A stretch of 64,000 nucleotides of DNA from Mitsuokella sp. oral taxon 131 str. W9106. Its GTDB lineage: Bacteria; Bacillota; Negativicutes; Selenomonadales; Selenomonadaceae. The translations under genes were made by a program, and so were the position numbers. Of this stretch, positions 40,077-50,628 are shown one piece after another. The DNA lies in assembly GCF_000469545.1 (NCBI RefSeq), contig NZ_KI273056.1, positions 1-64,000 on the forward strand. Direction: 5' to 3'. Position 1 is the stretch's first letter; each line of letters starts with the position of its first letter. Under the pieces are notes generated by a model. That model worked only from the letters and a program-made list of their open reading frames with translations, had not been told where the DNA came from and did not search any database.

Positions 40077-40796
40077 CTATAAATACGCCTCGAACCGCGC
40101 CATATCGAGCACCTTGATGCGTTTGCCGCTGACGGCGAGCAAGCCCTCCCGCTGCATGGCGCCGAGCTCGCGCGAGAGCGAGGGGCGCGTGACGGCAAGG
40201 TAGGCAGCGAGGTACTCGCGCGTCGCCATAAGCATGGCCGTACCGTCCGGCTTCATGATCTGAAAAAGGAACCGCACGATCTTCTCGCGCAGCGAGCCGC
40301 TCGCGAGCACCTTGATGCGCCCGTGCATGAAGTACGCCTTCTTCGCAAAGATGCGCATGAGATTGCGCTGGACGAGGAGCGCGCTGCGCGTCATGCCGGC
40401 GTTGTCGATCGTGAAGTAATCGCTCGCGATCATGAGCACATCGCTCGCCTCTACCGCCTCGACGTAAATATCGTACGGCTGTCCGAGGACGTTGTAGACC
40501 TCGCCGAACATATCGCCCGGCTCGCTTACCTCCGAGATGAAGATGCGCCTGCCCGAAACGGTATCCTTGAGGATATGCACTTCGCCCTTCAGGTGGATGT
40601 AAAGGTATTTCGGCATATCGCCGTCGTAAAATAGGATCTCGCCGCGACTGTAGTGCTGCCGATGTACCTTGCTCGACGCGAGCAGCTCCTCGATCTCCTC
40701 GTCCGTCATGCCCGCTGTAAGCATGCTGCACCGCAGGATCTCGCAGGCGGATGCTTCCATCGCTTCAGCGCAGCCGCATGGCTTCCGCTGCGTCAT
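40077..40796 (-). CDS. Crp/Fnr-family transcription regulator
   Basis: This 239-residue regulator has a cyclic-nucleotide-binding-type effector domain (about 35-150; GEILFYDGDMPKYLYIHLKG, GDMFGEVYN) and a C-terminal winged helix (about 165-235) with recognition-helix sequence VTRPSLSRELGAM. The N-terminus holds four Cys: C7, C9, C18 and C23. That recalls the Fe-S sensing N-terminus of FNR but the spacing is different; C23 is at a position often Cys in this family. The ATG overlaps the stop codon of a 47-residue frame (ATGA), which supports this start. A Crp-like site upstream of the fumarase operon is a possible target. Confidence 0.88.
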   Translation of the reverse strand: MTQRKPCGCAEAMEASACEILRCSMLTAGMTDEEIEELLASSKVHRQHYSRGEILFYDGDMPKYLYIHLKGEVHILKDTVSGRRIFISEVSEPGDMFGEVYNVLGQPYDIYVEAVEASDVLMIASDYFTIDNAGMTRSALLVQRNLMRIFAKKAYFMHGRIKVLASGSLREKIVRFLFQIMKPDGTAMLMATREYLAAYLAVTRPSLSRELGAMQREGLLAVSGKRIKVLDMARFEAYL

Positions 40797-40994: not shown

Positions 40995-41495
40995 TTATCC
41001 TTCTACGCGAATCTTCTCAATCCCGACGACGTACATCGTATGGTAGTCGTCATCATACCACTTCTCGTCGCACGACTTGTCGAGGAAGCAATCGGACTGG
41101 AGCGCCTGTGCGTAGAGCTTCCGGCACTCCATCGTCACGCGTGCCTCGGCAAACGTCGTGTAGCCGTTCTCGTGGCGGACGGTAAGCCCGGATTTTGCAA
41201 GCTTGTCCTCGTCACGCCCCGACACCGTGCCGAAATAGCGCATCATCTTGCGGTGTTCCTCCGTAAACACGGAAAGCGTGAGCTTATCCGCCCGATCGAT
41301 AAACTCCTTCGTGTAGCGCGTCGGACGGATGAAGATAAACGCGACATTCTTGCCCCAGAGCACGCCCATGCCGCCCCAAGACACCGTCATCGCATTCGCC
41401 TTGCCATCCGCCTCCGCCGCGACGAGCATCCACTCCTTGCCGATCACTTTGAACGGGCTTTCCGCAAACGCTTCTGCCGCGATTTCCTTTGCCAT
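40995..41495 (-). CDS. Flavin reductase-like FMN-binding protein
   Basis: This 166-residue protein has the split-barrel flavin-binding pattern, with MTVSWGGMGVLWGKN, IFIRPTRYTKEFID, and GTVSGRDEDKLAKSGL typical of the flavin reductase-like family in anaerobes. It probably binds FMN and may reduce it or pass electrons to partners; the substrate is unknown. AAGGAGG precedes the ATG. It stands before the DnaA-box cluster and is the first of three minus-strand genes leading to the Crp/Fnr regulator. Confidence 0.82.
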   Translation of the reverse strand: MAKEIAAEAFAESPFKVIGKEWMLVAAEADGKANAMTVSWGGMGVLWGKNVAFIFIRPTRYTKEFIDRADKLTLSVFTEEHRKMMRYFGTVSGRDEDKLAKSGLTVRHENGYTTFAEARVTMECRKLYAQALQSDCFLDKSCDEKWYDDDYHTMYVVGIEKIRVEG

Positions 41496-41824
41496 TTTTA
41501 TCCTCCTTTTCTTACGATAAGTTTAGGAAGCACGGATACCTTCCGCCGTGCCATCTTGACGCATCTTTTTGGCCGCACTTCGGCGGAAACCCTACGCCAA
41601 TCCGACGAATTTCATTTGATCCGTGATTCTTTTATTCTGCTATTCTGTCTGCGTGCACACTCCACACGCTTTTGGTGAAAATCGGAAGTTATCCACATTG
41701 TCCACAGTGTTATGCACAGGCTTTTGGGGGAAATCCCCAACAGAGACAAGCGATACGAAAATCCTTGTGGATAATGTCATTTTTTTGCGGTGGATAAACG
41801 CTGGAATTTGGGGATAACCTGCGC
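41496..41824. other. Intergenic region holding a DnaA-box cluster
   Basis: There is no gene in this 329-base gap between the flavin reductase-like gene and sufU. The first 150 bases look featureless and AT-richer than average. The last 140 bases hold six DnaA-box-like 9-mers and an inverted repeat. Confidence 0.6.
41689..41817. other. Cluster of six DnaA-box-like sites
   Basis: TTATCCACA (41689-41697, perfect), TTGTCCACA (41698-41706) and TTATGCACA (41710-41718) point one way. TGTGGATAA (41766-41774, perfect), GGTGGATAA (41789-41797) and TGGGGATAA (41809-41817) point the other way. Four of the six have one mismatch. An AT-rich T-run lies between the reverse boxes and a TTGGGG/CCCCAA dyad (41724-41740) between the two groups. 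This resembles an origin or a DnaA-titration/reactivation locus. Confidence 0.6.
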
Positions 41825-42253
41825 TCATTTCTCCTTGAGTGCGTCGTCAAGCGTATGCCATGCGAGCACGGCGCATTTGACGCGTGCGGGCATATTGGAA
41901 ACGTTCTGCAGGAGGGCAGCGTCCTCGAGCTCCTCGAGCTCCGCCTCGTCCGTGACCTCGCGCTTGATCATGCCGATGAACTTGTGCGCAAGCTCCCGTG
42001 CATGGCCGACGGTCTCGCCGCGCACGAGGTCGATCATGATGTCCGCCGACGCCTGCGAGATCGCGCAGCCGACGCCCGTAAACGCCGCGTCCTTGACGAC
42101 GCCGTCCTCGACTTTGAGCGCGAGCGTGATTTCGTCGCCACAGCTCGGATTATGCCCCTTGAGCGAGCACGTCGCGCCAGGAAGCTCCTTCTTGTTTTCG
42201 GGATTTCGGCTATGCTCGCCGATAAGCTCCGTATAGATATCCTCAAGCGCCAA
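41825..42253 (-). CDS. sufU: Iron-sulfur scaffold/sulfur carrier SufU
   Basis: This 142-residue SufU-type protein receives sulfur from SufS, with a zinc-bound active site, and passes it to SufBCD. Conserved Cys/Asp residues appear as HNPSCGDE, TGVGCAIS and VKCAVLAWHTL. The spacing matches SufU of Firmicutes rather than IscU. Its start overlaps the end of sufS by 11 bases. It is the last gene of sufC-B-D-S-U. Confidence 0.94.
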   Translation of the reverse strand: MALEDIYTELIGEHSRNPENKKELPGATCSLKGHNPSCGDEITLALKVEDGVVKDAAFTGVGCAISQASADIMIDLVRGETVGHARELAHKFIGMIKREVTDEAELEELEDAALLQNVSNMPARVKCAVLAWHTLDDALKEK

Positions 42254-46480: not shown

Positions 46481-46798
46481 GACCTACTCTCCTTGCCATA
46501 CTCTGCTATCGAAAGCGCCGCGTCCGCCGCCTGCTTGCTCCCGGCAGGCTGCAAAGGAAGGGCTCCCCTCCGCTTTGCAAGACGCCGCGCTTCAATCCCT
46601 ATGAAAATACTCGGAATTACCATTTCATTGTATGGCGAAATAAAAAAAATGTCAACAGATAACGGTTATATGATAACTCCTGTCTATTGATATTTCGGAC
46701 GGACTCCTGTGCTGCCCTTGAAAAAAATACGGCAATCGGCGATAATGGTTGGGAAAGAATCATTTTTCGCCAACCGGCAAAGGAGAAAGGAATTTCCC
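46481..46798. promoter_or_regulatory. Divergent sufC/clpX intergenic region
   Basis: The suf promoter (minus strand) is TTGACA (46655-46650), 17-base spacer, TACAAT (46632-46627). The clpX promoter (plus strand) is TTGAAA (46718-46723), 17-base spacer, GATAAT (46741-46746). The roughly 140-base suf leader contains GCCTGC/GCAGGC (near 46529-46549) and GCAAAG/CTTTGC (46551-46579) hairpins that could be regulatory. No gene is visible. Confidence 0.7.
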
Positions 46799-48073
46799 AT
46801 GGCAAAACAGCTTCAGTGCAGCTTCTGCAAGCGTGTCGTCGCAGTCCGCGACCAATACGACATGCCGATATACGACCCGAATACGGGCTTTGCGATATGC
46901 AGCCACTGCATCCGCGAGATCAACCACTTCCTCGACGAACACGAGACGGCAGCAGCCGAGACGAAACAGCGTGACTTCGCCGTGCAGCTTGACGAGATCC
47001 TCGAAAAGAACAAGCCGCATATCATCAAGCAGTATCTCGACGCGTACATCATCAATCAGGACCACGCGAAGAAGATCCTCTCCGTCGCCGTCTACAACCA
47101 CTACAAGCGCATGAAGTACGGCCTCCAAAACGAGGACGGCACGGAAATCGAAAAGTCGAACGTCATCATGCTCGGCCCGTCGGGCTGCGGCAAGACGGCG
47201 CTCCTTTCGCATCTCTCAAAGTTCCTCAACGTACCGTTCGCTGTCACCGATGCCTCCAGCCTCACGGAGGCGGGCTTCGTCGGCGCCGACGTCGAAGTCG
47301 CCGTACGCAACCTTTACTACGCCGCCGACAAGGACACGGAGCGCGCCGAGCACGGCATCATCTACCTCGACGAGTTCGACAAGATCGCCAGGAAGTCGGG
47401 CGCGAACAACTCCATCACCGCCGACCCCGGCCACGAGGGCGTCCAGCAGGCACTGCTCAAAATGCTCGAAGGCAGCGTCGTCGAGTTCACGGCGCGCGGC
47501 CAGCGCAAGCACCCCGAGGCGCCGACCATCAAAGTCGACACGACGAACATCCTCTTCATCGTCGGCGGCGCATTCGTCGGCATCGAGGACGTCATCGGAA
47601 AGCGCGTCAACAAGAACGCCGCCTCGATCGGCTTCGGCGCGGACGCGAAAGGCGCGTCGGAAAAGACGAAATTCGACGAGCTCATCCATCAGGTGCGCCC
47701 AGAAGACCTCATGCAGTACGGCATCATCCCGGAGATCATCGGCCGCCTGCCCGTCATCTGCACGCTCGAAACGCTCGACGAGGACGCGCTGCTGCGCATC
47801 CTGACCGAGCCGAAAAACGCACCCGTGAAGCAGTACGAAAAGCTCCTTGCGATGGACGGCGTCACGCTCGAATTCGAGGAAGCGGCATTGCGCGCCGTCG
47901 CGAAGAAGGCCATCGAGCGCAAGACGGGCGCGCGCAGCCTCAAGGGCATCATCGAGGATACGATGCTCGACATCATGTTCGACATTCCAAAGAGCAGCGA
48001 GCCGCGCAAGGTCATCGTCACGAAGGCGTGCATCGAGGGCACAGAGAAGCCGCGCATCGAACCGCTTTCCTGA
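46799..48073 (+). CDS. clpX: ClpX-type AAA+ unfoldase
   Basis: This 424-residue unfoldase would feed proteins to ClpP. It has an N-terminal four-Cys zinc domain (CSFCKR then CSHCIRE), Walker A LGPSGCGKTALL, Walker B IIYLDEFDKIA, the RKH pore loop (GQRKHPEAP) and the ClpP-binding loop IGFG. Some usually invariant positions differ (GCGKT for GSGKT, GFVGADVE for GYVGEDVE, DPGHEGVQQ), so it may be a diverged paralogue. No clpP or tig is adjacent. ATG 46799 is chosen because the zinc domain starts at once. Its stop overlaps the LacI regulator start (TGATG). Confidence 0.88.
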   Translation: MAKQLQCSFCKRVVAVRDQYDMPIYDPNTGFAICSHCIREINHFLDEHETAAAETKQRDFAVQLDEILEKNKPHIIKQYLDAYIINQDHAKKILSVAVYNHYKRMKYGLQNEDGTEIEKSNVIMLGPSGCGKTALLSHLSKFLNVPFAVTDASSLTEAGFVGADVEVAVRNLYYAADKDTERAEHGIIYLDEFDKIARKSGANNSITADPGHEGVQQALLKMLEGSVVEFTARGQRKHPEAPTIKVDTTNILFIVGGAFVGIEDVIGKRVNKNAASIGFGADAKGASEKTKFDELIHQVRPEDLMQYGIIPEIIGRLPVICTLETLDEDALLRILTEPKNAPVKQYEKLLAMDGVTLEFEEAALRAVAKKAIERKTGARSLKGIIEDTMLDIMFDIPKSSEPRKVIVTKACIEGTEKPRIEPLS

Positions 48074-49047
48074 TGGCGCGGATCAAAGACGTGGCGAGAG
48101 AGGCAGGTGTCGCCGCGAGCACCGTCTCCCTCGTCCTCAACAACAAGGGCTACGTCTCTGCCGCGACGCGCCGAAAAATCGAGGCGGCAATGGAAAAGCT
48201 CCGCTACGTTCCGAGCGAGGTCGCGCGAAATCTCTCGCTAAGCCGGACCAAGACCGTCGGCGTCATCGTCCCCTCCGTCTCCCACCCGTTTTTCAGCGAG
48301 CTTTTGGAATCGCTCGAATCCGCGCTCTACGCGCTCGGCTACAAGACGCTCCTCTGCTGCACGAAGGAAAAGGACAACGCCGAGCGCGCTTTCCTCGATA
48401 TGCTGCGACGAAAGACGATGGACGGCATCATCATGGGCGCGCATACGCTCGACACCGCGCTGTACGCGAACCTTGACCGACCGATCATCGCATTTGACCG
48501 ATTCCTCCGCGAAGACATCCCCATCGTGCACGCGGACCACCAATACGGCGGGCGGCTCGCCGCCGAGGCATTCCTGCGGCGCGGCTGCCGGCACGTCGTC
48601 GCCATCATGGGCTATCAGGGCGTCGCGACCCCTGCCAATGACTACCATCGCGTCTTTGCCGAGACCATGCGCCAGAGCGGCGCCGCGGTGCACCAGATCG
48701 AAATGAAGTGGAACGCCTTCGCCTACCGCGACTTCCTGCAGGCCGCGGACGAACTCTTCGCCCGCTTCCCGGCTGCCGACGGCGTATTCGGCTCCGACCT
48801 CGCGATCGCGAGCTGCCTGCGCGCCGCCGCCGCGCACGGTCGGCGCGTCCCGAACGACGTGAAGCTCCTCGCCTACGACGGCACGAGCCTCACGCGCATC
48901 GGGGCGCAGACCGTCACAGCCGTGCGCCAGCCCATTGAAGGCCTCGCCGCGCTTGCCGCAAAGAAAATCGTCGCCCGTGCCGAGGGCACGGCAGACACGC
49001 TGCCATGGATACTGAAGCCCTCGCTCATCAAAGGAGAAACCTGCTGA
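48073..49047 (+). CDS. LacI-family repressor, probable sucrose regulator
   Basis: This 324-residue regulator has an N-terminal helix-turn-helix and hinge (IKDVAREAGVAASTVSLVLN, then SEVARNLSLSRTKTVGVIVP) and a periplasmic-binding-like effector domain. It lies directly upstream of a GH32 hydrolase and sucrose symporter whose promoter has the palindrome GAACCGGTTC. A related operator is at the sucrose PTS promoter 30 kb away, so it probably represses both sucrose loci (inference). Its ATG overlaps the clpX stop codon. Its own stop codon lies in the loop of a terminator hairpin. Confidence 0.9.
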   Translation: MARIKDVAREAGVAASTVSLVLNNKGYVSAATRRKIEAAMEKLRYVPSEVARNLSLSRTKTVGVIVPSVSHPFFSELLESLESALYALGYKTLLCCTKEKDNAERAFLDMLRRKTMDGIIMGAHTLDTALYANLDRPIIAFDRFLREDIPIVHADHQYGGRLAAEAFLRRGCRHVVAIMGYQGVATPANDYHRVFAETMRQSGAAVHQIEMKWNAFAYRDFLQAADELFARFPAADGVFGSDLAIASCLRAAAAHGRRVPNDVKLLAYDGTSLTRIGAQTVTAVRQPIEGLAALAAKKIVARAEGTADTLPWILKPSLIKGETC

Positions 49048-49227: not shown

Positions 49228-50628
49228 ATGAAACAAGAGATGCACGTCACGAACCAACGCTACCGTCTCGGCTACCACCTGATGACGAAGGGCGGCTGGA
49301 TGAACGACCCGAACGGCTTTTCCTACTTCAAAGGCTATTATCATATCTTCTACCAGTATTACCCCTATGCCGCCGAGTGGGGGCCGATGCACTGGGGGCA
49401 CGCGAGGAGCACGGACCTCGTGCACTGGGAGACGCTGCCGGCTGCGCTTGCGCCCGGCGACATGGAGTCCGGCTGCTTCTCGGGAAGCGCCGTCCCCCAT
49501 GACGGCAAGCTTTGGCTCATCTACACCGGCCATCACTACATCGACCCGAAAGATCCCGAGGCATTCTACGAGGACCAGAACCTCGCCTACAGCGAGGACG
49601 GCATCCACTTCACGAAATACGAGGGGAATCCCGTGCTGCGCGTGCCGAAGGACAACACGAAGCACTTCCGCGACCCGAAGGTATGGCGCGAGGGGGACAC
49701 CTTCTACATGGTCGTCGGAAGCCAGGGAGCGGACGGCTGCGGCAGGGCGCTCCTCTACCGCTCGCCGGACCTCATCGACTGGACGCGCTGCTCCGTGCTC
49801 GCGAAATCCGAAAACGAGAAGACCGAAGGCTACATGTGGGAATGCCCCGACTTCTTCCCGCTCGGCGACAAGTATGTCCTCCTCATGAGCCCGCAGGGGC
49901 TTGAAGCATCGGGCGACGACTACCGCAACCTCAACCAGACCGGCTACCTCGTCGGCACGCTTGACAAAGAGACGCATGTGCTCGCGCACGGCAAATTCGT
50001 CGAAATCGACCGCGGCCATGACTTCTACGCGACGCAGACGATGGAAACGCCCGATGGCAGGCGCGTCATGATGGCGTGGATGGCGGCGTGGGACTCACCG
50101 ATGCACGAAAAGGAAGACGGCTGGGCGGGCGCGCTCACCATCCCCCGCACGCTTCGCCTCGCAGGCGGAAAGGTGTACCAGTCGCCAATCCGCGAGATGG
50201 AGAGCCTGCGGGAAAAAACGCTGCAAGACGGCGCGTGGGAAGCGGGAAAGGCCTACGCGCTGCCGCGCAAGGCGGAAATCTGCCTCCGCTTTGATGCAGC
50301 GCCCGCCGTCCTGCTCACGCTGACCGACGGCACGCACGGCCTGTCCCTCGCATGGGAGGCGGAGAAAAACCGTCTCGTGCTCACGCGAAAGACGAAAGAC
50401 GGCGTGCGCGCTTGCACGCTTTCCGCCGCGCCGCACGCCGTCCGCGCCTTCCTGGACCAAAGCTCCGTCGAAGTCTTCGTGAATGACGGCGAGACGACGT
50501 TCACCGAGCGCATCTACTTTGCGGGGAACGTGACGCTCACAGCCGCAGCACAAGAGGGCGCGATTTACGCGCTTGAAGCAGAGACAAACACCTACGGCAC
50601 GGACGCCGCCGAGGAGGAAACAAAATGA
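49228..50628 (+). CDS. GH32 sucrose hydrolase (invertase type)
   Basis: This 466-residue cytoplasmic GH32 enzyme has WMNDPNGF with the nucleophile Asp, HFRDPKVW and MWECPDFF with the acid/base Glu, then a C-terminal beta-sandwich. Because it is coupled to a CscB-like proton symporter that delivers unphosphorylated sucrose, it is probably an invertase (sucrose to glucose plus fructose) rather than a sucrose-6-phosphate hydrolase. The two activities cannot be told apart by these motifs. AAAGGAG precedes the ATG. Its end overlaps the symporter start by 4 bases. It is a distinct protein from the GH32 at 14.9 kb. Confidence 0.88.
   Translation: MKQEMHVTNQRYRLGYHLMTKGGWMNDPNGFSYFKGYYHIFYQYYPYAAEWGPMHWGHARSTDLVHWETLPAALAPGDMESGCFSGSAVPHDGKLWLIYTGHHYIDPKDPEAFYEDQNLAYSEDGIHFTKYEGNPVLRVPKDNTKHFRDPKVWREGDTFYMVVGSQGADGCGRALLYRSPDLIDWTRCSVLAKSENEKTEGYMWECPDFFPLGDKYVLLMSPQGLEASGDDYRNLNQTGYLVGTLDKETHVLAHGKFVEIDRGHDFYATQTMETPDGRRVMMAWMAAWDSPMHEKEDGWAGALTIPRTLRLAGGKVYQSPIREMESLREKTLQDGAWEAGKAYALPRKAEICLRFDAAPAVLLTLTDGTHGLSLAWEAEKNRLVLTRKTKDGVRACTLSAAPHAVRAFLDQSSVEVFVNDGETTFTERIYFAGNVTLTAAAQEGAIYALEAETNTYGTDAAEEETK

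Follow-up and report, generated by a model that had tools for sequence, protein, structure and literature searches.

What is a dense cluster of DnaA boxes doing in the gap between a suf cluster and a flavin-reductase gene, on a contig other than that of dnaA? The stretch that was analysed (the window, C7:1-64000, 64,000 nucleotides) belongs to a draft genome of 2.31 Mb in 25 contigs. With TTATCCACA as the reference and at most one mismatch allowed, six boxes were found at 41689-41817. On the plus strand lay a perfect TTATCCACA (41689-41697) and two boxes with one mismatch each, TTGTCCACA (41698-41706) and TTATGCACA (41710-41718). The minus strand carried a second perfect TTATCCACA (41766-41774), followed by TTATCCACC (41789-41797) and TTATCCCCA (41809-41817), both with one mismatch. 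A short inverted repeat, TTGGGG..CCCCAA, was located among the boxes at 41724-41740; it was not scored as an intrinsic terminator in a scan of the gap, and an Rfam search of the gap for an RNA element gave no match up to an E-value of 1. Pfam matches identified the upstream neighbour as sufU, the last gene of the suf cluster (41825-42253, NifU_N), the downstream neighbour as flavR, encoding a flavin-reductase-like protein (40995-41495, Flavin_Reduct), and the next gene past flavR as a Crp-family regulator (40077-40796, cNMP_binding and HTH_Crp_2), all three on the minus strand. The best named matches of flavR were from Selenomonas, with Schwartzia and Anaerovibrio lower down, and the genome was accordingly assigned to the Selenomonadaceae. 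The suf cluster was also adjoined by a gene for a ClpX-like AAA+ protease subunit (46709-48073, plus strand), after which came a LacI-family regulator (48028-49047) and a gene whose sequence resembled that of a beta-fructosidase (49228-50628).

The preliminary description of this DNA had reported the six boxes with their orientations, the inverted repeat, the two flanking genes and a density beyond chance, and all of these points were borne out. Six boxes were observed in 129 bp, compared with a highest count of three in any stretch of that length when the 64 kb window was simulated 300 times with a first-order Markov model. With a total of 329 such 9-mers over 2.31 Mb, the Poisson chance of six or more boxes at a given place was about 4e-14. 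The outcomes named in advance as refuting included many equally dense clusters in the genome and a lack of conservation in relatives. Neither was observed. A survey of the genome places with a perfect box revealed comparable density only at both flanks of dnaA and at C11:68832-69071, and the cluster was found to be a member of an element conserved across genera, as described below.

The same description had left open whether the locus was a DnaA-titration site or an origin separated from dnaA, and had proposed to map dnaA. The gene was found on another contig, at C11:101.8-103.6 kb, with the DnaA ATPase domain encoded at C11:102513-102998 and an intact DNA-binding domain (Bac_DnaA_C, E 1e-33). 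It was flanked on both sides by box clusters, which placed the origin there; these clusters consisted of the same 9-mer as the boxes of the window. The GC skew on C11 was -0.06 at 62-76 kb, +0.01 at 96-101.7 kb and approximately +0.04 past dnaA, so that the sign changed near dnaA, in the interval from 76 to 96 kb. On C7, the skew was negative in every 8-kb block from 1 to 120 kb, and no sign change was found around the cluster. C7 and C11 were not joined, and the synteny between C7 and G012:C4 was rearranged. The single skew sign across C7:1-120 kb, together with the location of dnaA on C11, indicated that the cluster was inside one chromosome arm and not at the origin. Dense boxes and AT-rich stretches nearby would be expected of an origin separated from dnaA, but this reading is extremely unlikely in view of the skew on both contigs, the clusters at dnaA itself and the relatives, which carried the element besides the boxes at dnaA. 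Membership in oriC was rejected on the same grounds. Of the two possibilities, a DnaA-binding regulatory or titration locus was the better supported, since the boxes matched those at dnaA and the element was conserved across genera, its presence in relatives going with nearness to dnaA and not with the neighbouring gene.

An orthologous element was present in seven genera of the Selenomonadaceae, mostly in the same sufU-flavR gap. Of 24 flavR upstream regions from six genera, 23 contained a forward box with a reverse box at a distance of exactly 36 bp (at most one mismatch in each box; the spacing was not selected for). In the remaining region (G109), the 36-bp pair was beside sufU, and a HAD-family gene was inserted ahead of flavR. 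The array consisted of one forward box followed by reverse boxes at +15/16, +36 and +56/57. Nineteen elements from the seven genera, chosen for the 36-bp pair, were searched for further boxes with up to two mismatches and the fifth base free; 18 of them had a reverse box at +15/16, and 17 had one at +56/57. The +36 box was the best kept reverse box, and a box at +27 was missing in most genera. The flanks of the element were 28% identical between genera, which is the background level. The reverse boxes were spaced by 20-21 bp, or two helical turns, and could align bound DnaA along one side of the helix. One genome, G006, used the box variant TTATCAACA, and both forms were present in its dnaA region.

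The copy in the window deviated from this arrangement. In the orientation of flavR, boxes occurred at 0 (+), 15 (-), 27 (-) and 36 (-) in the other two species of this genus, the one at 27 being weak in G002. The window retained the last three reverse boxes, at 41710, 41698 and 41689, which were the counterparts of the conserved +15/16 box, of the +27 box in these two species and of the conserved +36 box, respectively. At position 0, the site of the forward box of the relatives, comparison with G001 and G002 revealed a decayed facing box with three mismatches, TTTCCCCCA (41725-41733, minus strand), which was spanned by the inverted repeat; the facing box was lost. Three extra forward boxes were located 41, 64 and 84 bp further out, at 41766, 41789 and 41809. 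With three reverse boxes kept, the facing box decayed and three forward boxes added, the cluster is therefore a diverged copy of the conserved element, in which the outer boxes may stand in for the decayed facing box.

In relatives, the presence of the element was associated with nearness to dnaA rather than with a neighbouring gene. The element lay with suf and flavR in the genus of the window, in Selenomonas and in the genus of G012, with flavR but no suf beside it in Anaerovibrio and G023, and with suf and the Crp-family gene but without flavR in G005. A 36-bp-spaced pair beside M18 peptidase and MFS genes in G103, without flavR, is likely the same element. The Crp-family gene stayed beside the element in several genera, including where flavR was lost. 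Eleven flavR genes of the family (eight and three) had no boxes upstream, and in G016 and others suf was near dnaA without the cluster. Where the cluster was present and could be placed relative to dnaA, it was 22 (G070), 28 (G116), 48 (G136), 77 (G012), 82 (G102) or 120 kb (G126) from dnaA. Where it was absent, flavR was 460 (G047), 606 (G075) or 634 kb (G010) from dnaA, or at least 310 kb away as judged from contig ends (G129 and G079); as the genomes with and those without the cluster were of different genera, distance and ancestry are confounded here. In six complete genomes (G126, G124, G010, G047, G075, and G091), all perfect pairs outside oriC were within 406 kb of dnaA, the farthest point of these chromosomes being 1.0-1.4 Mb from it. 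A genome of the same class but another family had boxes clustered downstream of flavR with a different spacing, 72 kb from dnaA (G040:C1:2606575-2606691, L020:2153-2269); this cluster may be of independent origin.

One genus of the Selenomonadaceae, g13 (G014, G064, G081, G101, G114, G120, and others), appeared to be a possible natural negative control. No Bac_DnaA_C match was found in 26 of its 31 genomes, including all 6 of high quality, and the members with a match were G092, G147, G148, G149, and G166. This looks like patchy loss of DnaA within one genus, which could partly be due to assembly gaps or misplaced contigs. Paired boxes were absent from g13, but approximately 20 single boxes per genome were left in the best genomes, and G092, which has DnaA, was also without pairs. 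The genus therefore proves nothing and was rejected as a control.

The window cluster was one of about five DnaA-box clusters outside oriC in this genome. Eighteen of the 24 perfect boxes were concentrated at six places: around dnaA, at C11:68.8 kb, C17:26.5 kb, C25:4.1 kb and C9:126.3 kb, and in the window, all but the first being clusters or close pairs outside oriC. For each of these five, another species or genus carried a corresponding site next to the same gene. For the four outside the window, orthology was judged by common neighbouring genes and not by full synteny, and the genes were CYTH and LytR-CpsA-Psr for C11, cobT for C17, mscS for C9 and, for C25, an unnamed gene on the mnmG/rsmG side. 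The cluster at C11:68832-69071 (L001:6833-7072), 33 kb from dnaA, contained eight boxes within 240 bp, none with more than one mismatch. It was located between the convergent azlD and CYTH genes and overlapped the end of one of them with its final two boxes. The pfkA/rsmG-side cluster of G103 and G022 was also between convergent genes, and promoter control is unlikely at both clusters because of this position. In several genomes, boxes upstream of dnaA shared the spacing of the first three boxes of the C11 cluster (0+, 12+, 23-), and counterparts of this cluster were present in G001, G002, G124, and G126. A second element, nearly palindromic and with facing boxes 35 bp apart, was found at C17:26487-26530 and C25:4069-4112. 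Its clearest form was TTATCCACA-TTATGCACA-N8-TGTGGAAAC-TGTGGATAA; counterparts occurred in G126, G109, G012, and G076, and it was beside cobT in C17, in G001 and probably in G012. In two genera, DnaA boxes were also present near genes that, judged by their sequence, are nrdG-like and encode the anaerobic ribonucleotide reductase activase (C9:126258-126412, L005; G103:C4:133676-133755, L236). The nrdAB genes of E. coli are regulated by DnaA.

The distribution of the element and of the other clusters bears on what the boxes may do. The cluster could be an operator through which DnaA controls the transcription of flavR and of the adjoining Crp-family gene, so that both would respond to the state of replication. 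The boxes were upstream of flavR and within 350 bp of its start in the window and most relatives, and DnaA of B. subtilis is a transcription factor at some chromosomal sites (PMC4447404). The element was, however, kept without flavR in G005 and split from it by the inserted gene in G109, and conservation without flavR means that control of flavR by DnaA does not explain it. The eleven flavR genes without upstream boxes, the position of other clusters of the same kind between convergent genes and the result of a crude scan of the gap, in which no sigma-70-like promoter was found on the flavR strand, also argued against such control, which is doubtful as the function of the cluster and a weaker rival of titration, though possible in the genome of the window. 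It is very unlikely that the 9-mers are bound by a protein other than DnaA, such as the nearby Crp-family regulator. The persistence of the Crp-family gene beside the element, also without flavR, would agree with such a reading, but the same 9-mer formed the clusters flanking dnaA and those beside unrelated genes, and the element existed without a Crp gene beside it in Anaerovibrio and G103.

Another rival is that the array, like DARS or datA of E. coli, changes the nucleotide state or oligomer form of DnaA and is not a passive sink. Like DARS1 and DARS2, the arrays were non-coding, with one box facing tandem opposite boxes at a spacing fixed across genera (PMC5742627), a likeness that concerns arrangement only. 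In the other two species of this genus, the first three boxes (0, 15, 27) were also near the E. coli values (0, 14, 26). The core spacing measured in both DARS1 and DARS2 of E. coli MG1655 was 0(+), 14(-), 26(-), whereas that of the Selenomonadaceae element was 0/15-16/36/56-57. The DARS core was thus not reproduced: the +36 box had no counterpart in it, the +27 box was missing in most genera and the copy in the window had no facing box. The datA locus is likewise a non-coding intergenic locus with several DnaA boxes and lowers DnaA activity; it acts with IHF, promoting the hydrolysis of DnaA-bound ATP (PMC5742627). An action of the DARS or datA kind is quite improbable for the array. A broader proposal is that the Selenomonadaceae use the array, with its one box facing reverse boxes at +15/16, +36 and +56/57, specifically for remodelling DnaA. 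It would control DnaA oligomers or their nucleotide state as a counterpart of DARS or datA, in a lineage for which no such element was found in the open-access literature; this proposal is rather improbable.

The likely reading is that the cluster is a conserved DnaA-box cluster outside oriC of the B. subtilis type, which would restrain initiation by holding DnaA. Reviews describe six DnaA-box clusters outside oriC in B. subtilis, the joint deletion of which leads to early initiation (PMC5295017, PMC13220808). The locus in the window was of this kind: away from oriC, it had more boxes close together than chance would give. The B. subtilis clusters are described as oriC-proximal and number several per chromosome, six there compared with about five here. 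They differ in lineage and in neighbouring genes, and the Selenomonadaceae element has a fixed 36-bp architecture across genera. DnaA would most likely bind the array cooperatively. The clusters, which in relatives would be copied soon after initiation, would then hold DnaA, leaving less of it free for oriC, and re-initiation would be restrained by this titration. The cluster would probably help to set the time at which chromosome replication starts.

No report of DnaA-box clusters in Selenomonas or the Negativicutes was found in the open-access literature. To our knowledge, how loci on the chromosome govern the amount of active DnaA is poorly known outside E. coli and B. subtilis. Even for B. 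subtilis, a 2026 review considers it unknown whether regulators balancing DnaA-ADP and DnaA-ATP exist (PMC13220808). The whole family Selenomonadaceae seems to share a few such loci, whose architecture can be read and whose position follows a trend. Their exact sequences and spacings, together with the natural comparisons of genomes with and without them, would allow DnaA titration to be tested against DnaA remodelling in the control of initiation.
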